Shown here: one piece after another, positions 10,417-38,078 of the stretch | Layout: each line of letters opens with the position of its first letter | Position numbering within the stretch: the first letter of the stretch is position 1 | DNA from: Parabacteroides faecis | GTDB taxonomy: Bacteria > Bacteroidota > Bacteroidia > Bacteroidales > Tannerellaceae | DNA length: 64,000 nucleotides | Assembly: GCF_014647375.1 (NCBI RefSeq) | Contig: NZ_BMPB01000002.1 | Coordinates: forward strand, 399,146-463,145 | Reading direction: 5' to 3' | Made by a program: the position numbers and the translations under genes | The notes under the pieces: generated by a model | What the model saw: the letters and a program-made list of their open reading frames with translations, nothing else | Database searches by the model: none | What the model was told of the DNA's origin: nothing

Positions 10417-12717
10417 ATGTACAAACAATTTCTTGCAGCTTGCTCCCTGACCGGAGCTTTAATGCTGAGTGCATGTTCGCCCACGACGCCTGCGGCACAT
10501 GATGTTTCCCTGATCCCCGTTCCGAAAGAGATCAAGAATGTGAATGGACAGTTCATCCTGAAGAATGGTATGACGATCGGTGTTGCCGATAAGCAGTTAT
10601 TACCGGCAGCAAATTATCTTTCCGGCCTTTTATCGCGTGCAACCGGCTATATATATAATGTACGTGAGGGAGACGGTGATATATCTTTGGCGGTAAGTGA
10701 TATTGCCGGCCAGAATGAAGGAGCTTATACGCTGGATGTTTCTTCCGGAAAAGTACAGATTAAGGGAAATACTTATGGTGGAGTTATTTCCGGTATCGAA
10801 TCGCTTCGCCAGCTTTTGCCGGCAGAGATCGAATCGCCGGAAGTGGTGAACGATATTACCTGGAGTGTTCCGGCTGTCCAGATCACGGATGCACCCCGTT
10901 TCGGATGGAGAGGGTTGATGCTGGATGTTTCTCGTCATTTCTCTACTAAAGAAGAAGTGAAAGAGCTGCTGGATATGATGGCTCTCTACAAATTGAATAA
11001 ATTCCATTGGCATCTGACCGATGACCAGGGATGGCGTATTGAAATAAAGAAATATCCGCTGTTGACTGAAAAAGGAGCCTGGCGTACCTTCAACAATCAT
11101 GACCGGGAATGTATGAGATTGGCAAAATCACAGGATAATCCGGATTATGAATTACCTGCTGAGAAATTGCAGATTGTACAAGGTGATACTCTGTACGGCG
11201 GTTTCTATACTCAGGAAGATATTAAGGAAATCGTAGAATATGCCGGTGTGAGAGGTATCGACGTAATCCCGGAAGTGGATATGCCGGGCCATATGCTGGC
11301 TGCCGTAAGCAATTATTCAGGCGTTTCCTGTTTCAACCAGACAGGATGGGGAACCATGTTTTCTTCGCCGGTATGTCCCGGAAAAGACTCTGCCCTTGAA
11401 TTTTGTAAGAATGTGTATAGCGAAATAATCCCGCTTTTCCCTTATAAATATATTCATTTGGGAGCGGATGAAGTAGAGAAAGCCAACTGGAAGAAATGCC
11501 CGGATTGCCAGAAGCGGATGAAAGATAACGGACTGAAGACGGAAGAAGAATTGCAATCCTGGTTCGTTCATAATATGGAGAAATTCTTCAACGATAACGG
11601 AAAAGAAATGATCGGCTGGGATGAGATCCTGGAAGGCGGATTGTCTCCGACGGCGACGATCATGTGGTGGCGTACCTGGTCTCCGAACGCTGTTCCGGAA
11701 GCAACCGCACAGGGAAACCATGCTATTCTTTCCCCGAATGCAAACTTCTATTTCGATTATCAGCAGGATAAAAACTCTTTGCCGGGTGTTTACAACTACA
11801 ATCCGATGCCCGAATCGTTGAGTGATGCGCAGAAGGCCTTGATCCTGGGTATTCAGGCAAATCTCTGGTGCGAATATATCCCTTCTTTCGAACGGGCACA
11901 GTATATGATCATGCCCCGTATGATGGCTATGGCGGAACTAGCCTGGAGCGATCCTTCCGTAAAAAGCTGGGATGGTTTTAAAGAACGGATGGTTAAGCAA
12001 TTCCCGCGTCTGAACATTATGGATGTGAATTATCGTATTCCGGATCTGGAAGGATTCAATAATACCAATGCGTTTGTCGGTGAAGGCACATTGACGGTAA
12101 CCTGTCTCGATCCGAGTGCGGAGATCCATTATACAACCGACGGAAGTACTCCGACTCTGGAATCTCCTCAATATAAAGAACCGGTCAAAGTAACGGAGAC
12201 GACAGACTTTACTTTCCGTACATTCCGCCCGAACGGAAAGAAAGGCGACATCGTAAAGACACGGTTTATCAAGAGCGAATATGCACCGGCAGCAGAAGCA
12301 ACTCCTTCAAAGAAAGGTTTGCAGGCTGTATGGCATGAGTTCAGAGGCAGTGCATGCGACGAGATAGAAAAGGCTCCGGTAAACGGTACTTATGAGATAT
12401 CCGAAGTGACTATTCCGGCAGAAGTGAAAGGAAATATCGGCTTGGTCGTAACGGGGTATTTCAATGCTCCGGAAGATGGTATTTATACCTTCAACCTGTT
12501 GTCTGATGACGGCAGTACGCTGAAAGTCGATGGAGAGCTGGTTGTCGATAATGACGGTCCTCATTCACCTCGCGAAGTTGTCGGACAAAAGGCGTTGGCA
12601 AAAGGTCTTCATCCGATAGAAGTAAAATATTTCGATCATAACGGCGGAATGCTTCAGATGAAGGTGCTGACAGCCGACGGAAAAGAATTACCTAACGCAG
12701 ATATGTTTGCTTATTAA
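10417..12717 (+). CDS. GH20 beta-N-acetylhexosaminidase lipoprotein with PA14 domain
   Basis: This 766-residue enzyme should release terminal GlcNAc or GalNAc from host or dietary glycans. A lipoprotein signal peptide with LSAC lipobox leads to a GH20b N-terminal domain (about 30-150) and the GH20 barrel (about 155-510). The catalytic Asp351-Glu352 pair is in HLGADEVEK, with WHLTDDQGWR and VIPEVDMPGH also present. After the barrel there is a chitobiase-like C-terminal domain (IHYTTDGSTPT) and a PA14-like carbohydrate-binding domain (GYFNAPEDGIYTF, then SDDGS). The start at 10417 gives the correct signal peptide; the in-frame extension from 10369 overlaps the -7 box TATTTTTG at 10372-10379. 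A strong terminator follows. Confidence 0.95.
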   Translation: MYKQFLAACSLTGALMLSACSPTTPAAHDVSLIPVPKEIKNVNGQFILKNGMTIGVADKQLLPAANYLSGLLSRATGYIYNVREGDGDISLAVSDIAGQNEGAYTLDVSSGKVQIKGNTYGGVISGIESLRQLLPAEIESPEVVNDITWSVPAVQITDAPRFGWRGLMLDVSRHFSTKEEVKELLDMMALYKLNKFHWHLTDDQGWRIEIKKYPLLTEKGAWRTFNNHDRECMRLAKSQDNPDYELPAEKLQIVQGDTLYGGFYTQEDIKEIVEYAGVRGIDVIPEVDMPGHMLAAVSNYSGVSCFNQTGWGTMFSSPVCPGKDSALEFCKNVYSEIIPLFPYKYIHLGADEVEKANWKKCPDCQKRMKDNGLKTEEELQSWFVHNMEKFFNDNGKEMIGWDEILEGGLSPTATIMWWRTWSPNAVPEATAQGNHAILSPNANFYFDYQQDKNSLPGVYNYNPMPESLSDAQKALILGIQANLWCEYIPSFERAQYMIMPRMMAMAELAWSDPSVKSWDGFKERMVKQFPRLNIMDVNYRIPDLEGFNNTNAFVGEGTLTVTCLDPSAEIHYTTDGSTPTLESPQYKEPVKVTETTDFTFRTFRPNGKKGDIVKTRFIKSEYAPAAEATPSKKGLQAVWHEFRGSACDEIEKAPVNGTYEISEVTIPAEVKGNIGLVVTGYFNAPEDGIYTFNLLSDDGSTLKVDGELVVDNDGPHSPREVVGQKALAKGLHPIEVKYFDHNGGMLQMKVLTADGKELPNADMFAY

Positions 12718-14292: not shown

Positions 14293-14637
14293 ATGAAGAT
14301 TCAGCAAATACAAGAACTTACCGATGCGGTTGTGGCGTGCGGAAACGACAAGCTAGACCATGATGTACAATGTGCTTTTGCCAGCGACCTGATGAGCGAC
14401 GTGCTGACACTGGACTGTAATGAAGTCATTCTTATCACCGGACTTTGTAACCTGCAAACAATCCGTACGGCGGAAATGGCAGATGTCGACTGTATCCTTT
14501 TCGTCCGTGGAAAAAGGATCACTCCGGAGATGCTGCAACTGGCATCCGAGAATAACATGATCTTACTCGAAACGGAACATTCCATGTATCATACGGTGGG
14601 CGAACTGTATTGCAGCGGCCTCGTACCGGTCTATTAA
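14293..14637 (+). CDS. DRTGG-domain protein, first of two in the module
   Basis: This 114-residue protein is a stand-alone DRTGG-like domain. The signature region reads CAFASDLMSDVLTL, and the rest alternates strands and helices (VILITGL, ADVDCILFVRG, NNMILLETEHSMYHTVGELYCSGL). DRTGG domains are found beside CBS domains and in phosphotransacetylase N-terminal regions and are thought to be regulatory ligand-binding domains. The ATG at 14293 is preferred over the in-frame TTG at 14281. It opens a tightly packed set of six genes with an [FeFe]-hydrogenase-like protein, an arrangement known in many anaerobes, where the pair of DRTGG proteins flanks the iron-sulfur protein. Confidence 0.8.
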   Translation: MKIQQIQELTDAVVACGNDKLDHDVQCAFASDLMSDVLTLDCNEVILITGLCNLQTIRTAEMADVDCILFVRGKRITPEMLQLASENNMILLETEHSMYHTVGELYCSGLVPVY

Positions 14638-14651
14638 AGAAAGGAGAAAGT

Positions 14652-15074
14652 ATGCAACTGAGGTTTGAATTAGAAGGAGGAAATTTCTCGAAAGCCGGAT
14701 ATGCGTCCAGCCAGGTCAAGAAGATACTGAAACAGCTGTCCATCGATCCCCGCATCATCAAGAGGGTGGTTGTCGCCCTGTATGAAGCCGAGGTAAATGT
14801 GGTTGCCCATGCCTGGCGGGGAAAAGTACTGGCGGAACTCGATGCCGATAAGATCTCTTTGTTGTTGAAGGATGAAGGTCCCGGCATCCCCGATATTCCG
14901 CAGGCCATGCAGGAAGGGTTCTCGACTGCTTCGCCTGCTGTGCGGGAAATGGGGTTCGGTGCGGGAATGGGATTGCCCAATATGAAAAAGAATGTAGACG
15001 AACTTAATATAGAGAGCGAGGTCGGCGTAGGCACAACCGTACGCATGGTCACCTGGTTCGGGAAGAAGGAGTAA
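14652..15074 (+). CDS. GHKL ATPase, anti-sigma-factor kinase (RsbW)-like
   Basis: This 140-residue protein is a single HATPase_c domain resembling RsbW/SpoIIAB anti-sigma factor kinases. The N-box is YEAEVNVVAHAW, the G1 box is KDEGPGIPD, and the G2-like box is GAGMGLPNMKKNVDEL. Such proteins bind ATP and can phosphorylate a partner or sequester a regulator; no anti-anti-sigma partner is visible here. The ATG at 14652 has AAAGGAGAAAG just upstream, an unusually good Shine-Dalgarno sequence for this organism. The gene lies 14 bp after the first DRTGG gene and 6 bp before the hydrogenase-like gene. Confidence 0.85.
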   Translation: MQLRFELEGGNFSKAGYASSQVKKILKQLSIDPRIIKRVVVALYEAEVNVVAHAWRGKVLAELDADKISLLLKDEGPGIPDIPQAMQEGFSTASPAVREMGFGAGMGLPNMKKNVDELNIESEVGVGTTVRMVTWFGKKE

Positions 15075-15080
15075 AACACC

Positions 15081-16460
15081 ATGGAAGAGACGAAGTTTTA
15101 TCATGCACTTAAAATAAACCAGGAACGTTGCATCGGTTGCACGCATTGTATGACCAAATGCCCGACCCGTGCAGTCCGTATCCGTGACGGTAAAGCCGTG
15201 ATACGCAAAGACTGGTGTGTCGATTGCGGGGAATGCCTGAAAGCCTGTCCGGCGGAAGCCATCTATGTGGAGCAGGATGACTTCCAGAAGATATTCGACT
15301 ATGAATGCCGGGTGGCGCTTGTTCCGACCGTATTTATCGGCCAGTTTTCCAAATATACGACGGAAGAGGAGATATTCAGTGCCCTGTATGAGTTGGGATT
15401 CACCCATGTGTACCAGGTCGAATTCACTGCCGATATGATCCACCGGGAGATGCTCCGGCAGATGGAACAGGCAGAGGAGAAGCCGGTTATCAGCTCTTTC
15501 TGTCCGGCAATCGTGCGGTTGATACAGATTCGTTTCCCGGCGTTGGTCGATAATATTCTTTTGGTGAAAAGTCCGGTCAATGCGACTGCCACCTATTATC
15601 ATCAAGTGTTGACGGAAGAAGGTTATCAGCCCGGACAGATCGGACTCTTTTACGTGACGCCTTGTGCTGCCAAGATTGCCGCATTGAAAAGTGCGGATGG
15701 CTATTCATCCACCATTAACGGTGTGATCAATATGGATACCCTATATAATAAGGTATATTATATCCTGCAAAACCGTCCGAAAGGCTACAAGCCCGAATGT
15801 GTCCTTCCGCCCGCCCTGACCAAGAAAGAAATGAGATGGAGCCAGACGGGAGGGGAGGCAAAGCATTTCTCCGGCCGTTGCCTGGCTATCGACGAAATAC
15901 ACAACGTGATCGACTTTCTGGAACGGATGGAGACGACAACGGAGGTCCGGAATGTGGATTTCCTCGAACTGCGTGCCTGTGACCGCAGTTGTGCCGGAGG
16001 TGTATTGGCTGTAGCCAACCGTTTCCTGACTGCCGAGCGGATCATGAAGCGTTCGATGAAACGTGATAAGGCCCCGCTTATTTATGCTTCTGAACGGCTG
16101 GGGGCATTAGCTTACCTGAAACAACATATCACGATCCGTCCGCTTCCGGCTAATCCGAAACTGCTTTACGACGGTAGCATTGAAGAAGTGCTGAAAAAGA
16201 TGGAGCAGGTACGGAGATTGATGTGTTATCTTCCGGGAATCGATTGCGGTGCATGTGGAAATCCGAACTGTCAAAGCCTGGCGGAAGATATTGTCCGTCA
16301 TGAAGCCCAGTTCAGTGACTGTATTTTTATGCAGCGTAATATGGAGAAACATGGCAAACTGGACCAGGAGCATGCTTTCCGCCTGGTAGAAAAAATATGG
16401 GGGAAGGATCGTTTAAATAAAGACTGTTATAAGAAAGGAGCCAAATATGAAGGTCAGTGA
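15081..16460 (+). CDS. [FeFe]-hydrogenase-like iron-sulfur protein, putative sensor
   Basis: This 459-residue protein has an N-terminal 2x[4Fe-4S] ferredoxin (Cys17/20/23/27 and Cys46/49/52/56), an [FeFe]-hydrogenase large-subunit domain (about 75-345), and a C-terminal iron-sulfur domain with Cys389, Cys392, Cys397 and Cys414. All four H-cluster ligands are kept: Cys141 in SSFCPA, Cys195 in TPCAAK, and Cys300 and Cys304 in RACDRSCAGG. The cysteine that relays protons in catalytic enzymes (first Cys of TSCCP) is Phe140 here. This resembles the putatively sensory group C/D hydrogenases, which have altered residues at this site, but no PAS domain is present. It probably senses H2 or redox state rather than turning over fast. 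It overlaps the next gene by 14 bp. Confidence 0.85.
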   Translation: MEETKFYHALKINQERCIGCTHCMTKCPTRAVRIRDGKAVIRKDWCVDCGECLKACPAEAIYVEQDDFQKIFDYECRVALVPTVFIGQFSKYTTEEEIFSALYELGFTHVYQVEFTADMIHREMLRQMEQAEEKPVISSFCPAIVRLIQIRFPALVDNILLVKSPVNATATYYHQVLTEEGYQPGQIGLFYVTPCAAKIAALKSADGYSSTINGVINMDTLYNKVYYILQNRPKGYKPECVLPPALTKKEMRWSQTGGEAKHFSGRCLAIDEIHNVIDFLERMETTTEVRNVDFLELRACDRSCAGGVLAVANRFLTAERIMKRSMKRDKAPLIYASERLGALAYLKQHITIRPLPANPKLLYDGSIEEVLKKMEQVRRLMCYLPGIDCGACGNPNCQSLAEDIVRHEAQFSDCIFMQRNMEKHGKLDQEHAFRLVEKIWGKDRLNKDCYKKGAKYEGQ

Positions 16461-16785
16461 TCTTGTAAAAGAATTGGAACTCACCGTTTTCTGCGGTGAA
16501 GAGAATCTGGATGCCGTCGTTAAAGGCGGTTATACCAGCGATCTGTTGAGTGATGTAATGGGGCATATGGAAGAAGGGATGCTATGGATCACCATGCAAA
16601 CCCATCAGAATATCGTTGCCGTTTCAACCTTGAAAGATGCGGCGGCTGTTTTGATCGTGAACGGTGCTTCACCGGATGAAGAAACGTTGCAGAAAGGCAT
16701 AGAAGAAGGGGTTCCTTTACTGGGGACGCCGCTTTCCGCTTTCGTCGTCAGTGGTAAAATATATCAACTCCTGCAGAACGGATGA
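16447..16785 (+). CDS. DRTGG-domain protein, second of two
   Basis: This 112-residue protein has the same single-domain layout as the protein at 14293-14637. The signature region GGYTSDLLSDVMGHMEEGMLWIT is closer to the family consensus. The second half has a strand-helix pattern (AVLIVNG, GVPLLGTPLSAFVVSGKIYQLL). It starts inside the end of the hydrogenase-like gene with AAAGGAG about 6 bases upstream, and its stop overlaps the start of the PHP gene by 4 bp. The overlaps suggest coupled translation and a shared complex or pathway. The ligand is unknown. Confidence 0.82.
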   Translation: MKVSDLVKELELTVFCGEENLDAVVKGGYTSDLLSDVMGHMEEGMLWITMQTHQNIVAVSTLKDAAAVLIVNGASPDEETLQKGIEEGVPLLGTPLSAFVVSGKIYQLLQNG

Positions 16786-17525
16786 ATCTTTACCGGGCTG
16801 ATCTGCATATTCATACTTGTCTTTCCCCTTGCGGAAGCCTGGAAATGAGCCCCACGGTCATTGTCGAAACAGCACTTGCCCGGGGACTGGATATTATTGC
16901 CGTAACGGATCATAACAGTACCCTGCAATGTCCTGAGATACAAAAGCTGGGGGCCGAAGCCGGATTGACGGTTTTTGCCGGGGCCGAGGTTTGTTCCCGT
17001 GAGGAGGCGCATTGCGTGGTTCTTTTGGGAACGGAAGAGGCGCGTGTTGCTTTTCAGCAATATCTGGAGATGTATTTGCCGCCTGTCCCGAACGATCCTG
17101 AACGGTTCGGTGACCAGGTGTGGGTGAACCGGCAGGACGAAATAATAGGGGAGGTCCCGTATTTGTTGCTCTCTGCGCTCGACCGCAATGTGAATCAGGT
17201 AGCGGCATTTGTAAAGGAACTGGGCGGTCTGTTTATTGCTGCTCATGTGGAACGCCCGTCTTTCAGCCTGATCAGCCAGCTTGGTTTCATTGACCCGGCA
17301 TTGCCTTTGGATGCGATTGAATATACGGATGCGTCCCGGTTTGCAAGGCTTGTGGACAAACAAAAGTATTTGTCGAACTACACCTCTTATCCGGCTTCCG
17401 ATGCCCATTACCCGTCACAGATCGGAAGTAATCCATGCCTGATACGGGCTTCTGCACCTTTATTCGAAAACATCAGGATGGCTTATGCTAAAACTCAGGA
17501 ACATTTAGTTTTTTCCTCCGCATAA
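16782..17525 (+). CDS. PHP-domain metal-dependent phosphoesterase
   Basis: This 247-residue protein has a PHP domain of the type seen in histidinol phosphatase and in RNase AM-like enzymes. Metal-binding motifs are RADLHIHTCLSPCG near the start, AVTDHNST, AGAEV, AAHVERPSFS and SDAHYPSQIGS, which account for most of the expected trinuclear site ligands. The substrate is unknown; in this context it may act on a nucleotide signal or a phosphorylated partner. It overlaps the second DRTGG gene by 4 bp (ATGA). It is the last gene of the tightly packed block; the following ATPase gene is separated by about 150 bp with a repeat array. Confidence 0.88.
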   Translation: MNLYRADLHIHTCLSPCGSLEMSPTVIVETALARGLDIIAVTDHNSTLQCPEIQKLGAEAGLTVFAGAEVCSREEAHCVVLLGTEEARVAFQQYLEMYLPPVPNDPERFGDQVWVNRQDEIIGEVPYLLLSALDRNVNQVAAFVKELGGLFIAAHVERPSFSLISQLGFIDPALPLDAIEYTDASRFARLVDKQKYLSNYTSYPASDAHYPSQIGSNPCLIRASAPLFENIRMAYAKTQEHLVFSSA

Positions 17526-17543
17526 TTAAAAGAATAAGATAAA

Positions 17544-17609
17544 CTATACATAAATGTAAAGCATACTATACGTATAAGTAAGGTTATCTATACAAAAACG
17601 TAAGGCAAG
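17544..17609 (+). repeat. Three tandem 22-bp imperfect repeats
   Basis: Units start at 17544, 17566 and 17588, each beginning CTATAC and containing a GTAA near base 14. The spacing is exactly 22 bp, about two helical turns, so bound proteins would lie on one face. The array lies between the PHP gene and the second ATPase gene, in the only long gap of the module, so it could be an operator for the latter. There are no spacers, so it is not a CRISPR. Confidence 0.65.
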
Positions 17610-17675
17610 CTTTCCTTTTATAAAATAGAGGAGAAAAAAGTTTAAAATTCACTATGTCAGGAAATAAATATCAGG

Positions 17676-18200
17676 ATGAACACGCTTACATTCCATATCA
17701 CCGATATTGCCTCGAACAGTGTTCGTGCAGGCGCCACCCGTATTTCGTTGGAAATAACGATTCATGAAGACCATACGACTATCCGTATTACGGATAACGG
17801 TTGTGGTATGGATGCAGAAACGGTCTCCCGGATAACCAATCCGTTCTATACGACCCGGACAACCCGGAAAGTAGGACTGGGAATCCCTTTCCTTATTCAG
17901 AATGCAGAACAAACCGGCGGTCATGTCAGCATCACATCGGAGCCGGGAAAAGGAACGGCGGTAACGGCTTGCTTCATTACTTCTAATATCGACTGTCCGC
18001 CTATGGGGGATCTGCCCGGAACGGTTGCTATGCTGATAAGCGGGAATCCGGGGATTAATGTCTGTTTTTCTTACAGGAAAGAGGAATTGTTCTTTGAAAT
18101 AAGTTCGGAGGATTTGCATAGCATCTTTGAAGATATCCCGTTAAGCCATCCGAAAGTCATACTTGCCATCCGGGAGATGATCGCCGCCAATCTGTCCTGA
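17676..18200 (+). CDS. GHKL ATP-binding protein of the hydrogenase-associated type
   Basis: This 174-residue protein has an N-terminal HATPase_c fold and a short C-terminal domain. The N-box is DIASNSVRAGAT, the G1 box DNGCGMD, then FYTTRTTRKVGLGIPF as the ATP lid and G2 box, and GTAVTACF at the end of the fold. The His of a kinase dimerisation domain is absent, so it is not a classic histidine kinase. Close relatives occur next to NuoE/NuoF-like hydrogenase subunits and DRTGG/PHP genes in Clostridia and other anaerobes. It ends exactly where the convergent lytic transglycosylase gene ends. Confidence 0.82.
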   Translation: MNTLTFHITDIASNSVRAGATRISLEITIHEDHTTIRITDNGCGMDAETVSRITNPFYTTRTTRKVGLGIPFLIQNAEQTGGHVSITSEPGKGTAVTACFITSNIDCPPMGDLPGTVAMLISGNPGINVCFSYRKEELFFEISSEDLHSIFEDIPLSHPKVILAIREMIAANLS

Positions 18201-24651: not shown

Positions 24652-25050
24652 ATGGAGCGGTATTTAATAATTAAGACGAGGGATGAGTTGTTACGAATAA
24701 AGATAGGGCAGATACTCTATTTTGAAGCTGATAGAAATTACACTAAATTACTATTATCCAATGGAATCCAGTTTACGTTTGCAATTAATATCGGTAAAAT
24801 AGAAGAGATATTAGAAAAGCAGGTGGCAGGATGCAACAAGATATTAATGAGAGTTGGAAAAAGTCATATCATCAATAAAAATCATATTCTGCAGATCAAT
24901 TTACCTAAGCAAAAACTATTATTGTTGACGGAAGAGGGCAAACCCAGAGAGCTTATAATATCTAAAGATCCTTTGAAAGTGCTAAAAGAATCGCTGGAAA
25001 AGGAGATGGGCAAACCGGAAGAACCAAAGGAATTAAAAGATGAAAATTAA
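24652..25050 (+). CDS. LytTR-domain DNA-binding protein
   Basis: This 132-residue protein is essentially one LytTR DNA-binding domain, with the family motifs ILYFEADRNYTKLLLSNG in the first half and MRVGKSHIINKNHI in the second. It has no receiver domain, so it is not a response regulator by itself. A charged, Pro/Glu-rich tail follows. It is the first gene of the FHA-phosphatase-kinase cluster and overlaps the next gene by 11 bp, so it may regulate this cluster or be controlled by phosphopeptide binding through its FHA partner. A -7 box lies at 24609-24616, giving a leader of about 30 nt. Confidence 0.85.
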   Translation: MERYLIIKTRDELLRIKIGQILYFEADRNYTKLLLSNGIQFTFAINIGKIEEILEKQVAGCNKILMRVGKSHIINKNHILQINLPKQKLLLLTEEGKPRELIISKDPLKVLKESLEKEMGKPEEPKELKDEN

Positions 25051-25693
25051 AATCGGTAAAGCTGAAGATAATGATTTTATAGTGAATGATCCTCATGTTA
25101 GCAGACACCATGCTTGTCTGATGCGTGAGGATCATGGCTGTTGGTTGTTAGAAGATCTCGGCTCTACCAACGGAACTTTTGTTAATGGTTCACAGATCGT
25201 CAAAAAACGTGTTACACCGACAGATAAGATCATTTTGGGAACAGGCTATGTCCTGAATTTGTCTGAAGCGCTGAAGTATAATAATGACTATAGCGAAGAA
25301 TTTGCCGCTTTAAAGAAAGTGTATGATGATTATGTTCAAGCAAAAGTGAAGATACAGTCGGCTAATCAGTTTAAAACCAGATTATTTCAATCCCTTCCTT
25401 TTGCTTTACCCGGTATAATAGGTGTTGTGATCGGTTTTTTAGGTAAAGGGAGTCCTGAGTTTTTAGGGATAAGTCTTTTCATTACAATTTGTGCTCCTAC
25501 CGTCGGTATTTATATGGGAGCCAAACAGGCATCCAAGACACCTCAACAGTTGCAAGACATTGCAAATCAATTTAAAATAGACTATGTATGTCCCAAATGC
25601 GGTACTTTTTTGGGAGAAATACCTTGGGAATCCCTGAGGAACAGAAAGCAATGCCCGGTTTCTTCCTGTAAAGCAAAGTGGGTCAGCGAATAA
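25040..25693 (+). CDS. FHA-domain membrane protein with C-terminal zinc ribbon
   Basis: This 217-residue protein starts with an FHA phosphothreonine-binding domain (residues 1-75: IGKAEDNDFIVND, VSRHHACL, LEDLGSTNGTFVNG). After a short helical linker come two hydrophobic segments (about 118-165), so it is anchored in the inner membrane. The C-terminal 40 residues contain CPKCG and CPVSSC, a zinc-ribbon pattern. The FHA domain should dock proteins phosphorylated by the kinase at 27447-29348. The start overlaps the LytTR gene. Confidence 0.85.
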   Translation: MKIKIGKAEDNDFIVNDPHVSRHHACLMREDHGCWLLEDLGSTNGTFVNGSQIVKKRVTPTDKIILGTGYVLNLSEALKYNNDYSEEFAALKKVYDDYVQAKVKIQSANQFKTRLFQSLPFALPGIIGVVIGFLGKGSPEFLGISLFITICAPTVGIYMGAKQASKTPQQLQDIANQFKIDYVCPKCGTFLGEIPWESLRNRKQCPVSSCKAKWVSE

Positions 25694-25789
25694 GTTGTTT
25701 CGTATCTCAAAAGCGGACAGTTTGTACATAAAACCCAAACCTTTGATTATAAGAGGAAATTACATGTTAATTTAATCCGTTACTTTTTC

Positions 25790-25797
25790 TACTTTTG
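25790..25797 (+). promoter_or_regulatory. Candidate internal promoter -7 box
   Basis: TACTTTTG fits the TAnnTTTG consensus and lies 33 bp before the ATG of the acidic protein gene. A convincing -33 TTTG is not seen, so it is provisional. It would start a second transcript covering the acidic protein, FHA2, phosphatase and downstream genes. Confidence 0.4.
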
Positions 25798-25830
25798 TTT
25801 CCAGAAAGAATAATTTTAATTCAAACCAGT

Positions 25831-26073
25831 ATGCAAGAGGAGGAATACACATTCGTTACACTAGACAGTGACGACTCCGTATTTAGTGATGCGGTAGTAG
25901 TAGATGTGGATGGGGAAAACGATTTATCTGGTATCGTTATGATTGATGATGATAATATGGATGTTTCAGATTTTATTACATTATCTGATGACACTATAAT
26001 ATTGTCTGACACAGATGTACATGACGCTTTCTCTACTGATATTGACGGAGCTGATATATCGTTCATGTTATGA
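25831..26073 (+). CDS. Very acidic small protein, possible phospho-acceptor
   Basis: This 80-residue protein is not a recognised family. It carries a striking excess of Asp (about a quarter of residues) and few basic residues. It reads as a repeated pattern of a short hydrophobic strand and an acidic turn, for example VVVDVDG, IVMIDDD and IILSDTD. Ser and Thr next to Asp (LDSDDS, LSDDT, LSDTD) are frequent. The ATG at 25831 is chosen because the in-frame TTG at 25795 lies inside the -7 box. It overlaps the next FHA gene by 4 bp. Its place between two FHA genes makes it a candidate ligand or substrate of the module, which is inference. Confidence 0.65.
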   Translation: MQEEEYTFVTLDSDDSVFSDAVVVDVDGENDLSGIVMIDDDNMDVSDFITLSDDTIILSDTDVHDAFSTDIDGADISFML

Positions 26074-26585
26074 TTTCAGTCAAGTGTCCACATTGTCACG
26101 TAGGATTAAAGGTAGACGAGGGGAAACTTCCCCTCGATCTCACTTCTTTTAAATGTCCGAAGTGTAAACAATCGATTCCTGTCTCTTTGCTTCAACTGGG
26201 AAAGCAAGGAGCAGATTGTGATCAGGATACAATCCTGGTCCATCCCGTTTCAAACAGTACAGGTCAGCTTTTGGTTGTTGGCGATGCCGTTACCCCCGAA
26301 CAATCTTTTCCCCTCTATGAAGGTATTGCAGTCATCGGTCGAAAATCCAATGCATCGAATGCTACTATAGGGATTCTGACGGCCGATAAATCAATGAGCC
26401 GGGAACATATACGAATAGAAGTTAAAAAAGACCCAAAAGGAGGGTATAAACATTATCTTTCTGACAATAATAGTAAAAACCATACGTTATATAATAGCAA
26501 TTACCTTGAAAATGGAGAAGTAGTGGTGCTGAAGAATAATGACGAGATCGTTATCGGGCATACTGTTCTTCGCTTTAATGAATAA
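26070..26585 (+). CDS. Zinc ribbon plus FHA-domain protein
   Basis: This 171-residue cytosolic protein begins with an MJ0042-type zinc ribbon (VKCPHCHVGLK near residues 5-14 and FKCPKCKQSIP near 28-37). An FHA domain fills the second half, with IGRKSNASNATIGI, SMSREHIRIE, the phosphothreonine-contact region SDNNSKNHTLYN and DEIVIGHTVLRF. It has no membrane segment, in contrast to the first FHA protein. The start overlaps the acidic protein gene, so their translation is probably coupled. It likely reads out phosphorylation by the downstream kinase. Confidence 0.85.
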   Translation: MISVKCPHCHVGLKVDEGKLPLDLTSFKCPKCKQSIPVSLLQLGKQGADCDQDTILVHPVSNSTGQLLVVGDAVTPEQSFPLYEGIAVIGRKSNASNATIGILTADKSMSREHIRIEVKKDPKGGYKHYLSDNNSKNHTLYNSNYLENGEVVVLKNNDEIVIGHTVLRFNE

Positions 26586-26599
26586 AATCTGTTCGTGCT

Positions 26600-27403
26600 A
26601 TGAATATAACGATTGGCAAGCCTTGGGCCGTTTGTGAAAAAGGCGGTAGACAAAACAACGAGGATTCAATCTATCCGTTACCGGAAATGGTTAATTCCAA
26701 TCAGAAATTATTTCTGGTTTGCGATGGTGTCGGCGGATCAGAGAAAGGAGAGATTGCCAGTTCGCTGGCTTGTGAATCTTTCCAGACTTTCTTTTCTACA
26801 TTCCTGGACGATGAACCATCAGAAGAATTTATAAATAAAGCTATCAGATATACAGAAGCTCGTTTCGACGATTACGTAAATACCCATCCGGAGGCCAAAG
26901 GTATGGCTACGACACTGACGATGGTTTCAGTTGGGACATCCGGTGTGACATTAGCGCATGTTGGGGACAGCCGGATTTATCAATTCCGCCAGGGAGAGAT
27001 CCTTTATCAGACTGAAGACCACTCGTTAGTCAATTCACTTGTCAAATTGGGAAAGATAACTAAGGAAGAAGCATCGACCCATCCGCAAAAAAATGTTATT
27101 GTTCGTGCCATACAAAGTACGGAACATCCGACGGAAGCAGATGTGATCCTGTTAAAAGATATACAGGCTGGCGATTATTTTTTCATGTGTACGGATGGTG
27201 TATTGGAACGGTTGAAAAATGAGGACCTTTCTTATATTTTCTCAACCCATAATAACCCGGAAGATATAAAAGATGCCATTATGGCATCCTGTTGCGGGAA
27301 GACCAGGGATAACTTTTCTTTTTATATTTTACCGGTTCAAAACGTTGGTGAATCTATCGGAATAAAACAAAATATTCTCTCTTTCCTTTATTCTTTTATA
27401 TAA
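26600..27403 (+). CDS. PP2C-type protein serine/threonine phosphatase
   Basis: This 267-residue protein is a PPM/PP2C phosphatase. Metal and catalytic motifs are GGRQNNEDS, LFLVCDGVGGSEKGEIAS, LAHVGDSRIYQFR, EDHSLVNSLVKLG and FFMCTDGVLERL, in the usual order. It should reverse phosphorylation by the adjacent Hanks-type kinase. The start is 14 bp after the FHA gene. The last 25 residues after LPVQNVG are hydrophobic (LSFLYSFI) and might touch the membrane. A candidate promoter for the kinase lies at its 3' end. Confidence 0.9.
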   Translation: MNITIGKPWAVCEKGGRQNNEDSIYPLPEMVNSNQKLFLVCDGVGGSEKGEIASSLACESFQTFFSTFLDDEPSEEFINKAIRYTEARFDDYVNTHPEAKGMATTLTMVSVGTSGVTLAHVGDSRIYQFRQGEILYQTEDHSLVNSLVKLGKITKEEASTHPQKNVIVRAIQSTEHPTEADVILLKDIQAGDYFFMCTDGVLERLKNEDLSYIFSTHNNPEDIKDAIMASCCGKTRDNFSFYILPVQNVGESIGIKQNILSFLYSFI

Positions 27404-27446
27404 ATAACGTAATTTTGGCAGATTAAAAAGAGATACGCAATAAGTT

Positions 27447-29348
27447 ATGAATTTGCCAAACGGACATCTTCTTCAAAATAGAAAATATCGGCTTACTCAT
27501 GTAGTTGGTCAGGGCGGCTTTGGTATAACTTACAAAGGCGTCTGGTTTACTGAGGTTAAAGGACCATTGGGAACGATCAAAACAGAAGTTCCTATATGTG
27601 TAAAAGAATATTTTTTTAAAGATTACTGTTATAGAGATCCTGATTCTTTTGAAGTTAAAGTTCATTCAGAAACAGGAAGGGCGCTTTTTGAGAAGTTTAA
27701 AGAGAAACTGATTAAAGAGGCTAAGATATTATCGGATGTTCATCACCCTCATATTGTCAATGTATTGGAAGTGTTTGAAGAAAATAACACGGCCTATATT
27801 GCTATGGAGTATATTTCCGGTAATAGTTTGAAATATATGATGGACAAGGAAGGCGTCTTGCCGGAAGCGAGGGTGCTCAGATATGTGCATCAGATAGGAG
27901 AGGCTCTTCAGTTCGTTCACGAGAAAAATGTTCTCCATCTGGATATAAAACCGAGTAATATACTGATCGACCAAAGTGGGAAAGCACGCCTGATCGATTT
28001 TGGTGTGAGTAAACGATATGATATTGAACAGCAGGAGACAAGTACGACCATGCTGACTTTATCGAAAGGTTTTGCCTCTATAGAGCAGTATGATAATGAG
28101 GGTACACAAAATTTTTCGCCATGCCCGGATATTTATTCCCTGGGCGCAACTATGTATAACCTGTTGACCGGCAAGATACCGACAGAATCTATTCTCCGTG
28201 CAACCCGTCCGTTGCCAGTTCCTAGAGAATTAAATCCGGCTATTTCTTCCAAGACAGAAGCTGCAATAATCAAGGCAATGGAAATTGTTCCTGCTGACCG
28301 TTTTCAATCGGTGTCGGAGATGTTGGTAGCTTTGGACTTCCCAGAAGCGGAGGAAGAGGAAATAAAAAAAGATATATCTTCTCCGGAATATTTTGAGGAA
28401 GATGAAACGACGATTTTATTTACAACACGTTTACCCCAATCCAAGACGGATGAAGGAGATGAAACGGTATTGAATAATGTCGATCAGCCTTCAATACCTA
28501 AAAAGAAAAAAAGAAAAGTAACGTTAATATCTTTACTTATTATTATATTTGCAAGTATAGCTTCTGCATGGGTGCTGTTGGTACAACGAAATAAACCTGT
28601 ACCTCCTGTTGTTGAAGTTCTGAATGCTGCTCCGAAAGGAAATAGCGATCCGGTCTCTGAAACGGTAGCTACTGATATTATTGAAAAGAACAATACGTCG
28701 GCAGTTGCTGAAGAAGAACCCAGAAATGGTTCTGATGAGAAAAATGTCGATAACCGGCAGACTTCGCAAGAGAAACCCGCTGTTAAGTCTGAAGTTACGA
28801 CTTCACGAACAGATACGGCGAAACCTCCAAAGGAGCCAACGGTAAAAGATATTGAGAAAACAGTTGTTACACCATCAGTTCCTTCGGAAGAAGAGATCAA
28901 TGCGGAGTTTGAAACATTGATTACTTCCGGTAAAAGTAAAATGGCGGACGCACAGGTTTCCAATGGTGCAGCCGATTTTGCAAAAGCTACGGAAGAAATT
29001 TCGGAAGCAGGTCTTGCTTTCAGTAAGGCTGCAAAGCTCAAAACGACGGATGAACTTATTGACCTTATAGGAAAATGTAAAGTCAAAGAGGAGGAAATAC
29101 TCCTTGCCGGTAGAAAAGCACAATATGAAGAAATAAAACCATTTGGTGATCTTATGATCGTTCAGAAAAAGGATACGAAGAAGTACGGAGCCATTGATGC
29201 CAATGCAAGAGAACGGGTCAAATGCAAATATTTGGCGGCATACCGGACACAGCAAGGATATGGAGCGTTTGTCAGGGAAGATGAATTGTTCGATATTTAT
29301 AATACCGAAGGTGTAATGATCAGTGAACGTTTACCAGATTATTATTAA
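27447..29348 (+). CDS. Transmembrane Hanks-type serine/threonine kinase
   Basis: This 633-residue kinase has a cytosolic catalytic domain (about 14-290): glycine loop VGQGGFGITY (20-29), Lys53 in CVKEY, catalytic loop HLDIKPSN (164-171, Asp166), and DFG at 184-186. The HRD arginine is Leu165, so it is a non-RD type kinase. An acidic linker leads to a basic stretch and one membrane helix (about 358-378), then a Ser/Thr-rich external region and a C-terminal domain (about 485-633) with WG-repeat-like segments (KYGAIDANARERVKCKYLAAY, GYGAFVRE). It could sense an envelope signal. A TAATTTTG box at 27410-27417 may give it its own promoter. Confidence 0.92.
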   Translation: MNLPNGHLLQNRKYRLTHVVGQGGFGITYKGVWFTEVKGPLGTIKTEVPICVKEYFFKDYCYRDPDSFEVKVHSETGRALFEKFKEKLIKEAKILSDVHHPHIVNVLEVFEENNTAYIAMEYISGNSLKYMMDKEGVLPEARVLRYVHQIGEALQFVHEKNVLHLDIKPSNILIDQSGKARLIDFGVSKRYDIEQQETSTTMLTLSKGFASIEQYDNEGTQNFSPCPDIYSLGATMYNLLTGKIPTESILRATRPLPVPRELNPAISSKTEAAIIKAMEIVPADRFQSVSEMLVALDFPEAEEEEIKKDISSPEYFEEDETTILFTTRLPQSKTDEGDETVLNNVDQPSIPKKKKRKVTLISLLIIIFASIASAWVLLVQRNKPVPPVVEVLNAAPKGNSDPVSETVATDIIEKNNTSAVAEEEPRNGSDEKNVDNRQTSQEKPAVKSEVTTSRTDTAKPPKEPTVKDIEKTVVTPSVPSEEEINAEFETLITSGKSKMADAQVSNGAADFAKATEEISEAGLAFSKAAKLKTTDELIDLIGKCKVKEEEILLAGRKAQYEEIKPFGDLMIVQKKDTKKYGAIDANARERVKCKYLAAYRTQQGYGAFVREDELFDIYNTEGVMISERLPDYY

Positions 29349-29355
29349 TGTTTTT

Positions 29356-30297: not shown

Positions 30298-30308
30298 CTG
30301 ATAAGATT

Positions 30309-33438: not shown

Positions 33439-33539
33439 ATCTTTTGTTTTTTTAGAACAAAACACGCCCGTAAATCAAACAGAAATACGTATGTTTGTGT
33501 CATACCCATGTGGTAATAATGCCTTAAATGTGTACGATG

Positions 33540-33938
33540 ATGAACAAAGTAAAAACGTTAGATGACCTGCGGAAGATGCGTGAATCCTTACGTACCTCTC
33601 TTGATTTACGCGAGAAAAGTAATAATCCCGAGCAAATGGTTCAGATTAAGGTCGCTATGGCAACCTGTGGTATTGCTGCCGGAGCCAAAGAAGTAATGAG
33701 CTATTTTATTGAAGCCCTCGATCGGGAACGTGTAGATGCCCTAGTGACTCAAACTGGTTGTATGGGATATTGCTACGCGGAGCCTACTGTCGAGATCACA
33801 GTCCCCGGCAAAGAACCGATCGTATTTGGTCGCGTCAATAAAACCAAAGTAGACGAGATCATAACCAGTTATATCAAACAGGGTATTCTGATAGACGACA
33901 TTATACCTGTCAACTATAACTCGGTTGGCCCAGAATAA
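33540..33938 (+). CDS. Small 2Fe-2S thioredoxin-like protein of the hydrogenase operon
   Basis: This 132-residue protein is of the (2Fe-2S) ferredoxin-domain family that occurs beside NuoE/NuoF-like hydrogenase subunits. Conserved parts are ATCGIAAGAKEV (Cys43) and TQTGCMGYCYAEP (Cys74, Cys78). Only three cysteines of a four-Cys set are visible, so cluster binding is not certain. It probably serves as an extra electron carrier or assembly partner of HydB. ATGs at 33528 and 33537 also precede 33540; the last gives an N-terminus (MNKVKTLDDL) close to family members. A TATGTTTG -7 box at 33490-33497 precedes it. HydB starts 23 bp after its stop. Confidence 0.85.
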   Translation: MNKVKTLDDLRKMRESLRTSLDLREKSNNPEQMVQIKVAMATCGIAAGAKEVMSYFIEALDRERVDALVTQTGCMGYCYAEPTVEITVPGKEPIVFGRVNKTKVDEIITSYIKQGILIDDIIPVNYNSVGPE

Positions 33939-33961
33939 AAACCAATACAAATTCTTACATA

Positions 33962-35755
33962 ATGGCACAATATAGCAACTATATCCTGGTGTGCGGCGGT
34001 ACAGGCTGCCGTGCATCACAGAGCGAACTTATACTACAAAACCTGAAAGAGGCGGTCAGGCAAAACGGATTACAGGAAAGTGTACAGGTGATCCGGACAG
34101 GCTGTTTCGGCTTTTGTGAGAAAGGTCCGGTTGTAAAACTGATCCCGGATAATACTTTTTACGTGCAGGTTACTCCCGAAGATGCGGATGATATCGTCAA
34201 TGAACATCTGATAAAAGGTCGTAAAGTAGAGCGTTTACTCTATGTAAACCCGGAAACGAACGAACTGATACTCGACTCCAAACATATCAATTTTTATAAA
34301 AAACAGTTACGTATAGCCTTACGTAACTGTGGTTTCATCAACCCTGAAAATATAGATGAATATATTGCTCGTGACGGTTACATCGCCCTGGGGAAAGCGC
34401 TGACCGAAATGACACCTGAAGAAGTGATCAAAGAGATTATGGATAGTGGTTTGCGAGGCAGAGGCGGTGGTGGTTTCCCTACCGGATTGAAATGGCAGAT
34501 TACCCGTAAAGTACAGGCACCACAGAAATATGTAGTCTGTAATGCCGACGAAGGCGATCCGGGAGCGTTCATGGACCGCTCCATCCTGGAAGGCGATCCG
34601 CACTCTATTGTCGAAGCAATGGCAATCAACGGATATTGTACCGGTGCCAGCAAAGGACTTGTCTATATCCGTGCCGAATATCCATTGGCAGTAGAGCGTC
34701 TGAAGATTGCTATAGACCAGGCGAAGGATTACGGATTCTTGGGTGATAACATTTTCGGTACAGACTTTTCTTTTGATATTCAGATACGTTATGGTGCCGG
34801 TGCTTTCGTCTGCGGAGAAGAGACGGCACTGATCCATAGTATGGAAGGATTGCGTGGGGAAGCCACGGTCAAACCTCCTTTCCCCAGTGAAAGTGGTTAT
34901 AAAGGTTGTCCGACGAACGTGAACAACGTAGAGACTTACGCCAATATTCCCGTTATCCTGCTGAAAGGAGCCAAATGGTTCAGCAGCATAGGTACGGAAA
35001 AGAGCAAAGGCACGAAAGTTTTTGCCCTGGCCGGCAAAGTGAACAACGTCGGACTGATTGAAGTTCCGATGGGAACGACACTGCGCGAAGTAATATTCGG
35101 TATCGGAGGAGGAATAAAAGACGGAAAGAAATTCAAAGCTGTACAAACCGGTGGCCCTTCCGGTGGCTGCCTGACAGAGAAGCATCTGGATCTACCGATC
35201 GACTATGACAATCTGATCGCAGCCGGTTCCATGATGGGATCGGGTGGAATGATCGTGATGGACGAAGACGATTGCATGGTAGCAATGGCCAAGTTCTATC
35301 TCGATTTCACGGTAGAAGAGTCGTGTGGCAAATGTGCCCCTTGCCGTATCGGAAATAAACGTTTGCATGAAATGCTGCAGAAGATAACTTCGGGTAGAGG
35401 GAACATCGAAGATCTGGATAAACTGCGTAACCTCGCTATGGTAATAAAAGATACTGCTTTATGCGGTTTGGGACAAACATCACCCAACCCTGTTCTTTCT
35501 ACCATGGATAACTTTTACGATGAATATCTGGCACATGTCGACGAACAACGCTGTCCTTCTCACCAGTGCCGCGAACTGACCCAGTACTTTATCAATCCGG
35601 AGAAATGTAAAGGTTGTACCATGTGTGCCCGCATCTGTCCGGTACATGCTATCACTGGTAGCCGGAAAGTACCTCATACGATCGACTCGGAAATTTGTAT
35701 CCGTTGCGGATCATGTATAGAGAAATGCAAGTTCGATGCTATTTATGTACACTAA
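33962..35755 (+). CDS. hydB: NuoF-like flavoprotein subunit of trimeric [FeFe] hydrogenase
   Basis: This 597-residue subunit oxidises or reduces NAD(P)(H) and is the likely site of flavin-based electron bifurcation in HydABC. Order of domains: thioredoxin-like 2Fe-2S (VCGGTGCRASQSE near 10-22, RTGCFGFCEKGP near 48-59); NADH/FMN-binding Rossmann domain (GLRGRGGGGFPTGLKW, VVCNADEGDPGAFMDR); SLBB domain; [4Fe-4S] site ESCGKCAPCRIG; and C-terminal 2x[4Fe-4S] ferredoxin (CKGCTMCARICP and CIRCGSCIEKC). The N-terminal and C-terminal extensions distinguish it from complex I NuoF. It has no membrane segment. It is followed after 41 bp by hydA. Confidence 0.95.
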   Translation: MAQYSNYILVCGGTGCRASQSELILQNLKEAVRQNGLQESVQVIRTGCFGFCEKGPVVKLIPDNTFYVQVTPEDADDIVNEHLIKGRKVERLLYVNPETNELILDSKHINFYKKQLRIALRNCGFINPENIDEYIARDGYIALGKALTEMTPEEVIKEIMDSGLRGRGGGGFPTGLKWQITRKVQAPQKYVVCNADEGDPGAFMDRSILEGDPHSIVEAMAINGYCTGASKGLVYIRAEYPLAVERLKIAIDQAKDYGFLGDNIFGTDFSFDIQIRYGAGAFVCGEETALIHSMEGLRGEATVKPPFPSESGYKGCPTNVNNVETYANIPVILLKGAKWFSSIGTEKSKGTKVFALAGKVNNVGLIEVPMGTTLREVIFGIGGGIKDGKKFKAVQTGGPSGGCLTEKHLDLPIDYDNLIAAGSMMGSGGMIVMDEDDCMVAMAKFYLDFTVEESCGKCAPCRIGNKRLHEMLQKITSGRGNIEDLDKLRNLAMVIKDTALCGLGQTSPNPVLSTMDNFYDEYLAHVDEQRCPSHQCRELTQYFINPEKCKGCTMCARICPVHAITGSRKVPHTIDSEICIRCGSCIEKCKFDAIYVH

Positions 35756-35796
35756 ATAAGTTGACAGTGGATAATTGACAGTTGACAGAGAAGAAT

Positions 35797-37587
35797 ATGG
35801 AAAAGATAAAACTAACAATAGATAACAGAGAAGTGGAAGTCCTCAAAGGGACAACCATTCTCGACGCAGCAAAGAGCATGGGAATCCGTATCCCGACACT
35901 TTGCCACATGAAACTCGAAGATTTGAATTACGAAAACAACCCCGGAGCTTGCCGTATCTGTGTGGTGGAGATCGAGGGACGCCGCAACCTGGCCCCGTCC
36001 TGTAAGATGGAATGTACGGAAGGAATGGTGGTCAGAACCCATACACCCCGCGTAATGAATGCACGGAAAACAGTGATGGAACTGATCCTGTCCAATCATC
36101 CGGCCGGTTGCCTTACCTGTAGCAGTAACGGATATTGCGAATTGCAGACCATCGCTCACGACCTCGGTATTCGTGAAATAAGATATCAGGGTGAACAGTC
36201 TACTTTTGAGATCGACCGTTCTCCTTCCATTGTGCGGAATATGAACAAATGTATCATGTGCCGTCGTTGCGAAACCATGTGTAACAGCATACAAACGGTA
36301 GGTGCTTTGACTGCTGTTCATCGTGGATTCAACGCTGCTGTTTCTACAGCCTTTGAACGGGACATAGCCGGTAGCACCTGTTCCTATTGCGGGCAGTGTG
36401 TTTCAGTCTGCCCGGTGAATGCACTTAGTGGCCGTAATACCCAGCAGCCGGTACTGGACGCATTGGCCGATCCGACCAAGATTGTGATCGCACAAACTGC
36501 TCCGGCAGTGCGTACGGCACTCGGACGTGATTTTGGCTGTGAACCGGGAACATTGGTTACAGGAAAGATGGTATCTGCCCTTCGTCAGTTAGGTTTTGAT
36601 TATGTATTCGATACCGACTTTGCCGCCGATCTGACCATCATGGAAGAAGGTACGGAGCTTCTTCAAAGACTGGGCAAATACCTTTCGGGAGATCAGGAGG
36701 TGAAAATACCGATGATGACCAGTTGTTGTCCGGGGTGGGTGAGTTTTGTAGAACAACACTTTCCTGAATTACGCGACAACCTGTCGACAGCAAAAAGTCC
36801 GCAGCAGATGTTTGGAGCTATAGCTAAAAGCTATTTTGCAGAAAAACTAGGAGTGGATCGTAAAAATGTAGTTGTAGTATCCATTATGCCATGTTTGGCC
36901 AAGAAATATGAAGCCAGCCGTCCGGAGTTTGCCGTCGAAGGTAATCCGGATGTCGATATATCGATCTATACCCGCGAACTGGCTCGTTTGATCCGTTATG
37001 CCAATATCAACTTCAATGAACTTCCTGACAGTGATTTCGATCATCCTCTAGGTGAATCGACCGGTGCAGGCGTTATATTCGGAACGACTGGAGGTGTTAT
37101 AGAAGCAGCCTGCCGTACGGCCTACGAGCTATATACCCGGAAGCCGTTGGAAAAAATTGAATTTAAGGAATTACGAGGACTGGAAGGTATCCGTAGCGGA
37201 ACGATAAACTTCGACGGTGTCCCTGTCAAAATCGGTATCGCCCACGGTCTGGGGAATGCCCGTAAATTGGTAGAAGAAGTGAAAAGTGGGAAATCACCTT
37301 ATCACGTTATCGAAGTTATGGCTTGTCCGGGTGGTTGTATCGGAGGTGGCGGTCAGCCGTTCCATCAAGGTAGAATGGATGTTCTGCGTAAACGTGCTGC
37401 CGCTCTTTACAATGAGGACGAAAACAAACCGATTCGCAAGAGTCATGAAAACCCATATATTCAGCAACTATATAAAGAATACCTGGGTGAACCTTGCGGA
37501 CCGAAGGCGCATAAGTTATTGCATACTCATTACTTCGACCGTAAAGAAGTAGTCAATATGTTTTTGGAAACCGATAAAAACGAATAA
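35797..37587 (+). CDS. hydA: [FeFe] hydrogenase catalytic subunit
   Basis: This 596-residue catalytic subunit reduces protons to H2. The N-terminus has a 2Fe-2S domain (Cys36, 52, 55, 69), a His-Cys3 [4Fe-4S] site (His101, Cys105, 108, 114) and two [4Fe-4S] sites (Cys152-162 and Cys195-205). The H-cluster motifs are canonical: TSCCPGW (Cys310 proton relay, Cys311 ligand), MPCLAK (Cys366), and VMACPGGCIGGGGQP (Cys510 and Cys514). A small-subunit-like C-terminus follows. It is therefore a full group A hydrogenase, in contrast to the protein at 15081-16460. ATG 35797 is preferred over the TTG at 35782. No maturase genes (hydE, hydF, hydG) are in the window. Confidence 0.97.
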   Translation: MEKIKLTIDNREVEVLKGTTILDAAKSMGIRIPTLCHMKLEDLNYENNPGACRICVVEIEGRRNLAPSCKMECTEGMVVRTHTPRVMNARKTVMELILSNHPAGCLTCSSNGYCELQTIAHDLGIREIRYQGEQSTFEIDRSPSIVRNMNKCIMCRRCETMCNSIQTVGALTAVHRGFNAAVSTAFERDIAGSTCSYCGQCVSVCPVNALSGRNTQQPVLDALADPTKIVIAQTAPAVRTALGRDFGCEPGTLVTGKMVSALRQLGFDYVFDTDFAADLTIMEEGTELLQRLGKYLSGDQEVKIPMMTSCCPGWVSFVEQHFPELRDNLSTAKSPQQMFGAIAKSYFAEKLGVDRKNVVVVSIMPCLAKKYEASRPEFAVEGNPDVDISIYTRELARLIRYANINFNELPDSDFDHPLGESTGAGVIFGTTGGVIEAACRTAYELYTRKPLEKIEFKELRGLEGIRSGTINFDGVPVKIGIAHGLGNARKLVEEVKSGKSPYHVIEVMACPGGCIGGGGQPFHQGRMDVLRKRAAALYNEDENKPIRKSHENPYIQQLYKEYLGEPCGPKAHKLLHTHYFDRKEVVNMFLETDKNE

Positions 37588-37589
37588 GC

Positions 37590-38078
37590 ATGGAAAAGAT
37601 ACATTTGCCCCAATCAAAGATAAAAGAGTTGCAGGCCGTATGTAAAGAGCATGATAATGACTCCGGTGAACTGATCAACATTTTACATGCAGCACAGGAA
37701 ATATTCGGTTATCTTCCTCGAGAAGTACAGGAAATAGTAGCGTCCGAGTTGCATATCCCGGTATCCCGAGTATATGGTGTAGTTACTTTCTATTCTTTCT
37801 TTACCATGACGCCGAAAGGAAAATACCCGATCTCCGTTTGTTTGGGAACCGCCTGCTATGTGCGCGGAGCAGAAAAGGTGCTGGATGAATTCCAGCGTCA
37901 GCTTGAAATTAAAGTAGGAGAGACTACGTTAGACGGATTATTCTCTTTAGATTGCCTGCGTTGTGTGGGGGCCTGTGGACTGGCACCTGTAGTTACAATA
38001 GGAGGTAAGGTGTACGGTAGAATTACTCCGGAAAAAGTGCGGGATATTCTGTCTGAGTATTATATTCGCGAAGAGTAA
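37590..38078 (+). CDS. hydC: NuoE-like subunit of trimeric [FeFe] hydrogenase
   Basis: This 162-residue subunit has a helical N-terminus and a thioredoxin-like 2Fe-2S domain. The four cysteines are in CLGTACYVRGAE and DCLRCVGACGLAP, the usual NuoE/HydC pattern. It passes electrons between the HydB flavin and HydA. It starts 2 bp after hydA, so the order here is 2Fe-2S protein, hydB, hydA, hydC, while in Thermotoga it is hydC, hydB, hydA. The cluster with HydA argues against a complex I gene. Confidence 0.95.
   Translation: MEKIHLPQSKIKELQAVCKEHDNDSGELINILHAAQEIFGYLPREVQEIVASELHIPVSRVYGVVTFYSFFTMTPKGKYPISVCLGTACYVRGAEKVLDEFQRQLEIKVGETTLDGLFSLDCLRCVGACGLAPVVTIGGKVYGRITPEKVRDILSEYYIREE

Follow-up and report, generated by a model that had tools for sequence, protein, structure and literature searches.

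What does a sensor-like [FeFe]-hydrogenase sense, and which enzyme does it control, when it is encoded amid small ATPase, DRTGG and phosphoesterase genes? This question is raised by positions 14293-18200 of a 64,000-nucleotide stretch of Parabacteroides faecis DNA (contig NZ_BMPB01000002.1), the whole of which is referred to here as the window. Six open reading frames (ORFs), all on the + strand, form a real and conserved cassette of a known kind, which is best explained as a regulator of the electron-bifurcating [FeFe]-hydrogenase HydABC; to the more specific view that it is a redox- or H2-responsive regulator of this enzyme we give even chances.

A first-pass annotation, made from the letters of the window, had described the six genes with their overlaps of 14 bp (HydS/DRTGG2) and 4 bp (DRTGG2/PHP), and we recovered exactly this layout. 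Searches with Pfam and NCBIfam assigned, in gene order, DRTGG, GHKL, the [FeFe]-hydrogenase H domain together with ferredoxin and FeS domains, DRTGG, PHP and HATPase_c, and Pfam found no DNA-binding domain among the cassette proteins, as had also been stated. The genes and their presumed target are:

14293..14637, + strand: DRTGG1, 114 aa, with conserved FxSDLMSDVLT..TGLxNxQxxRTxEM
14652..15074, + strand: RsbW/SpoIIAB-like GHKL protein, 140 aa, with E45/N49 aligned to the SpoIIAB N-box Glu/Asn
15081..16460, + strand: HydS, a group D (M2e)-type [FeFe]-hydrogenase, 459 aa, with two [4Fe-4S] motifs, an H domain and a C-terminal Cx2Cx4Cx16C motif
16447..16785, + strand: DRTGG2, 112 aa, with conserved YxSDLLSDVMG..WxTxQxHxN, overlapping HydS by 14 bp
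16782..17525, + strand: PHP phosphoesterase-like protein, 247 aa, with conserved candidate metal ligands, overlapping DRTGG2 by 4 bp
17676..18200, + strand: second GHKL ATPase (HATPase_c), 174 aa, whose Subdoligranulum relative sits within a HydABC operon
33528..38078, + strand: HydD-HydB-HydA-HydC, an electron-bifurcating-type [FeFe]-hydrogenase and the presumed target, starting 15 kb past the cassette

The host is a gut bacterium (assembly of 6.66 Mb in 33 contigs, 99.99% complete as listed), and its HydS is 95% identical to that of P. gordonii. Three PF02906 proteins are encoded in its genome, namely HydA of HydABC, a group B enzyme on contig 9 (TIGR04105, 522 bits vs. a cut-off of 450) and HydS. 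The latter combines two N-terminal [4Fe-4S] motifs, the H domain and a C-terminal Cx2Cx4Cx16C motif (C389, C392, C397, C414), and gave no Pfam match to a PAS domain; according to passages of PMC6984386 and PMC8163306, this C-terminal motif and the lack of PAS mark sub-class M2e, i.e., group D. The H-cluster cysteines C141, C195, C300 and C304 are kept across Bacteroidales. Counterparts of the proton path proposed for group D, given in an excerpt of PMC10407848 as E252, E289, S/T249 and D265 in the numbering of TamHydS from Thermoanaerobacter mathranii, are E259, E296, T256 and D271 with the same spacing of 37 residues between the two Glu, these matches being assigned by motif and spacing with TamHydS itself outside the alignment. 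E259, D271, E296 and the C-terminal four-cysteine motif occurred in 11/11 Bacteroidales HydS rows of the alignment and also in Subdoligranulum, while T256 is replaced by Pro in one Draconibacterium (L093). E259 was found in none of seven longer PAS-type rows (PAS confirmed by Pfam in one of them, L045) and D271 in one of these seven (L048); neither residue occurred in three weak rows or in HydA.

F140 and T193, at the positions of C299 and M353, both fit the group D pattern (C299 lost, M353 changed to Ser/Thr), with Ser/Thr at 193 being present in the seven PAS-type rows too and Ala in L115. TamHydS resembles the window HydS in the domain plan with its C-terminal motif, the absence of PAS, the lost proton-pathway Cys, the hydroxyl residue for M353 and the E/E/S-T/D residues, and its gene likewise lies near a bifurcating hydrogenase and a histidine kinase-like ATPase. 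It differs, by motif assignment, at the C299 position, where the window protein has Phe instead of Ala, and at the M497 position, where R298 (window 15972-15974) stands in place of Leu; R298 is kept in 95% or more of 80 Bacteroidota HydS and is Asp in Subdoligranulum and Lys in one Draconibacterium. The group C (M2f) sensory HydS of the TmHydS type also possess an H domain and a C-terminal [4Fe-4S] domain and are putative sensors beside hydrogenase operons, but they differ in having a PAS domain at the C-terminus and in their active-site residues. By domain plan and residues, HydS fits the group D (M2e) putative sensory [FeFe]-hydrogenases, and the "sensor-like" label of the first-pass annotation finds its place in a recognized class. 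As a side observation, a longer group C-type HydS (at ~5.6-7.8 kb) ends ~1.4-1.7 kb upstream of DRTGG1 in the seven loci L045-L051, with a second HydC-HydB-HydA operon as its neighbor in six of them.

Conservation of the cassette was followed in the best 80 of 519 HydS-encoding stretches from named genomes, all Bacteroidota apart from one titled just 'bacterium'. These loci were scanned for ten query families, with profiles derived from the same loci, and either member was counted for the DRTGG pair and the GHKL pair, since the two members cross-match. An RsbW-type gene lies directly upstream of HydS in 80/80 loci and DRTGG1 upstream in all 77 having 1 kb of upstream sequence; downstream of HydS, DRTGG2 was found in 62/77, PHP in 58/70 and a GHKL gene in 50/66. 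PHP occurs on either side of HydS in 52/56. Where it was not downstream (12/70), it was upstream in five loci (L080, L086, L088, L091, L097) and on neither side in four (L102, L105, L112, L115), the other three having less than 4 kb of upstream sequence (L074, L087, L101). Because the whole block DRTGG2-PHP-GHKL precedes DRTGG1-RsbW-HydS in seven loci (L080, L085, L086, L088, L091, L097, L104), the cassette consists of two sub-modules, [DRTGG1-RsbW-HydS] and [DRTGG2-PHP-GHKL].

The gene set is also borne out as a unit beyond the Bacteroidota. In Subdoligranulum variabile (Clostridia; unannotated record labelled plasmid), HydC-GHKL-HydD-HydB-HydA is divergent from DRTGG1-RsbW-HydS-DRTGG2-PHP, so that the relatives beside hydrogenase operons which had been announced for Clostridia were seen in one member. 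This case came from a plasmid collection; the scan of genome contigs gave Bacteroidota or 'bacterium' loci among the 80 returned. The arrangement agrees with the published layout in C. thermocellum, where, in the passages concerned, Cthe_0335 is classed as D M2e and Cthe_0340-0342 as the bifurcating enzyme (PMC3561251), and Cthe_0339, inside Cthe_0338-0342, is annotated as histidine kinase (PMC3990059). In the Subdoligranulum locus (L197), a possible membrane-protein ORF of ~170 aa (11226-11942) lies between RsbW and HydS.

HydABC is the favored target. The HydA of the window scores 896 bits with the NCBIfam A6 model (cut-off 765) and is accompanied by HydB and HydC, which places the enzyme in group A6 (HydDB A3); relative to the cassette it is the genomic partner and the catalytic enzyme, not a part of the sensor. 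HydB follows the cassette within 6 kb in 36/49 loci; among the 44 loci reaching 9 kb downstream, 32 have HydA inside that distance. The 12 exceptions for HydA include all four named Parabacteroides loci; where the two H domains share a contig, as in seven Parabacteroides genomes, they are ~20-90 kb apart. Co-occurrence with HydABC, set beforehand as a check, was examined in 149 Bacteroidales genomes. HydS was matched at E<=1e-30 in 46 of them, of which 43 form the strict set after three weak rows without the group D residues were dropped (G069, G071, G145); group A6 HydA was matched at E<=1e-100 in 95 (92 above the family cut-off). The outcome spoke in favor of the link: HydA is present in 42/43 genomes with HydS (the exception being G001) vs. 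53/106 without (p 3e-9, counting genomes rather than independent events), or in 45/46 vs. 50/103 if the weak rows are retained. Some genomes carry two or three group A6 HydA, and the match is not always the neighbor of the cassette. Within 39 Parabacteroides genomes, sorted by PF02906 scores, HydABC-type HydA was found in 11/12 with HydS vs. 5/27 without (p 3e-5) and group B in 11/12 vs. 12/27 (p 0.01); HydS in this genus is thus tied more tightly to HydABC-type HydA than to group B.

The RsbW-like protein shares with the anti-sigma kinases SpoIIAB and RsbW the GHKL family, a single small domain and the N-box Glu/Asn positions (E45/N49, at least 95% conserved in 80 sequences and matched by alignment to 1til), the latter being catalytic residues in SpoIIAB. 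In contrast to these kinases, it scores below both family cut-offs (59.5 bits vs. 135 for SpoIIAB, 27 vs. 145 for RsbW) and its neighbors are DRTGG proteins and not STAS proteins or sigma factors. Both DRTGG proteins pass the Pfam cut-off and both families show a near-invariant Ser motif; a comparison of the DRTGG2 sequence with solved structures yielded nothing useful. The PHP protein (37.2 bits vs. a Pfam cut-off of 26.4) has D7-L-H9-x-H11, D43-H44, E69, H77, H155, D207 and H209 at least 95% conserved in 70 sequences, and these His, Asp and Glu positions are its candidate metal ligands. The cassette genes and HydA are under purifying selection: dN/dS is 0.02-0.09 over the six genes (HydS 0.022) and 0.015 for HydA, measured for the P. 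gordonii pair at dS 0.88-1.73, i.e., near saturation, most other pairs being saturated or undefined.

From composition, gene order, conservation, catalytic-type residues and the genomic link to HydABC, we infer the sensing, the kinase-substrate pairs and the direction and level of control. HydS would act as a group D [FeFe]-hydrogenase-type sensor, with low turnover by analogy to TamHydS, and the RsbW-like GHKL partner encoded beside it could read the state of its clusters. Toward DRTGG1 this partner may behave like an anti-sigma kinase toward an anti-anti-sigma protein, phosphorylating or sequestering it, and the second sub-module (DRTGG2, PHP phosphoesterase, GHKL ATPase) might relay or reset the signal and act on HydABC, more likely post-translationally than at the promoter.

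The question whether H2 itself is the stimulus leads to the H-cluster, for which the canonical maturases HydE, HydF and HydG were sought by a loose first search with one tool, followed by profile scoring. HydG was detected neither in the host genome at E<=10 nor at E<=0.001 in 11 distinct HydS-bearing Parabacteroides (G186 has the coordinates of G156), and was found in 12/12 comparison genomes (10 named cassette genomes, G059 and G029). Neither HydE above cut-off nor full-length HydF was found in 12 distinct HydS-bearing Parabacteroides (G187 equals G165), HydF giving only matches to its GTPase part (best 69.7 bits), while both were recovered in 13/13 maturase-positive controls (HydF at least 470 bits). 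In all 39 Parabacteroides, 28 of which have a PF02906 protein, no HydF exceeded the cut-off (best 103 bits, within the first ~180 positions); this model gives 471-556 bits for three HydF proteins of Bacteroidales. Absence is claimed for Parabacteroides, among which are three single-contig genomes (G151, G159, G162). Outside the genus, all three maturases are present in 10/10 tested named cassette genomes, and an excerpt of PMC10434189 reports hydEFG for B. thetaiotaomicron. HydE-HydG-HydF come directly after a group B gene (527 bits) in G059, and at that place the host Parabacteroides has PNGase F-like and MarC genes (L188).

Nine strict HydS-positive Bacteroidales genomes gave no HydG match; since two of them, G006 and G034, have HydE, their HydG gap may be assembly loss. 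Among the others, G096 showed a weak HydE match only, and G003, G043, G050 and G072 had no HydE at E<=1e-20. G072 and G003, from other Bacteroidales families and 98-99% complete, encode HydS and HydA, but no HydE or HydF was detected in them, nor HydG at E<=1e-60. Hydrogenases without maturases have precedents in passages of PMC4967309, which report maturase loss in some eukaryotes and judge the enzyme of Rhodospirillum rubrum to be probably inactive or of different role. Our literature searches on Parabacteroides or Bacteroides maturases and FeFe brought up, in the titles and passages covered, no report of a maturase gap, and the main text of PMC12578642 does not mention the maturases by name.

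Because the maturases were not found in Parabacteroides, H2 sensing by the window copy cannot be assumed, and on this point the first-pass annotation, partly supported as a whole, is not supported; the stimulus may here be the general redox state instead. The H-cluster motifs, however, are intact in HydS, HydA and the host group B hydrogenase, with TSCCPGW, MPCLAKKYE and E[VI]MACPGGC kept in HydA of 12 fetched Parabacteroides loci and the window. It is about as likely as not that HydE, HydF and HydG were lost in Parabacteroides and that the genus nonetheless maintains the group D sensor with its cassette, HydABC and group B under strong purifying selection, either through a HydEFG-independent route by which the di-iron subsite is made or acquired, or with the entire hydrogenase set, the sensor included, turned to a di-iron-free redox role.

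The latter option, applied to the sensor, is the likeliest of the rivals, and we consider it possible, if on the unlikely side: HydS in Parabacteroides would be an H-cluster-free [4Fe-4S] redox sensor, in which, for want of HydEFG, assembly stops at the cubane and accessory clusters, and the cassette would report the ferredoxin/NADH redox state and not H2. Consistent with this are the missing maturases in all Parabacteroides tested (HydF 0/39) and their presence in all 10 other named cassette genomes. The intact H-cluster ligands and motifs of the three hydrogenases are, however, difficult to understand for a di-iron site that always stays empty, and in HydA of two other genomes without detected maturases few of the 274 conserved positions are altered (4 and 5). 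Two further ideas were set aside. A substitute maturation system encoded by the cassette was dropped, as HydEFG was also present in the 10 other named cassette genomes examined for it. A changed evolution of HydA in Parabacteroides was used neither way: HydA differs at 18/274 positions conserved in 35 other HydA (HydB 2/306, HydS 2/80) and its mean distance to Carboxylicivirga-type anchors (0.327) exceeds that of every other genome (max 0.325), with HydB (0.203) and HydS (0.434) below every other genome, but HydA of the HydG-positive G008 (L122) differs at 20/274 too, and phylogeny may be the cause.

Transcriptional control via an unlinked partner, e.g., a sigma factor or an AraC-type regulator, is in our view doubtful. 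The resemblance of the RsbW-like protein to the anti-sigma F factor (59.5 bits, below the cut-off of 135) would suit it, as would the AraC regulator that flanks the TamHydS gene in T. mathranii (passage of PMC8163306) and, as candidates within the window, an AraC-type helix-turn-helix gene (46234-47133) and a two-component pair (40239-42372); against it stands the lack of any DNA-binding domain found in the cassette, the regulators beside other cassettes not having been searched for. We hold it quite improbable that, in place of signalling, the cassette serves HydABC as a set of chaperones for assembly or repair (two GHKL ATPases, a phosphoesterase and an Fe-S carrier), which the genomic tie to HydABC, the GHKL gene inside the Subdoligranulum HydABC operon and the missing DNA-binding domain could suggest, but HydS is absent from 5/16 Parabacteroides having HydA, group A6 HydA occurs in 53 Bacteroidales genomes that lack strict HydS, and TamHydS, unlike a scaffold, binds the H-cluster and reacts with H2 in vitro (passage of PMC8163306).

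Group D enzymes are already known, from the parts of the literature consulted, as putative sensors near bifurcating hydrogenases, and a passage of PMC8163306 states their signal transmission to be an open question. Our search found no paper joining FeFe, hydrogenase and DRTGG. As far as these searches go, the definition of the whole cassette, its sub-modules, its conservation across phyla and the maturase gap in Parabacteroides are new; in the full cassette and in a host genus without detected HydEFG, the system also differs from the TamHydS case. With five partner genes shared by two phyla and linked to HydABC, the set offers a concrete pathway that can be tested in gut bacteria amenable to culture. 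If the absence of the maturases holds, Parabacteroides would moreover be a bacterial case in which to test how [FeFe]-hydrogenases function without HydEFG, or whether they do so at all.

Between the cassette and HydABC, positions 24652-33438 of the window encode LytTR, two FHA, PP2C, Ser/Thr protein kinase, Kelch/FN3 and hexapeptide proteins, a run of genes that looks like a separate phospho-signalling locus.

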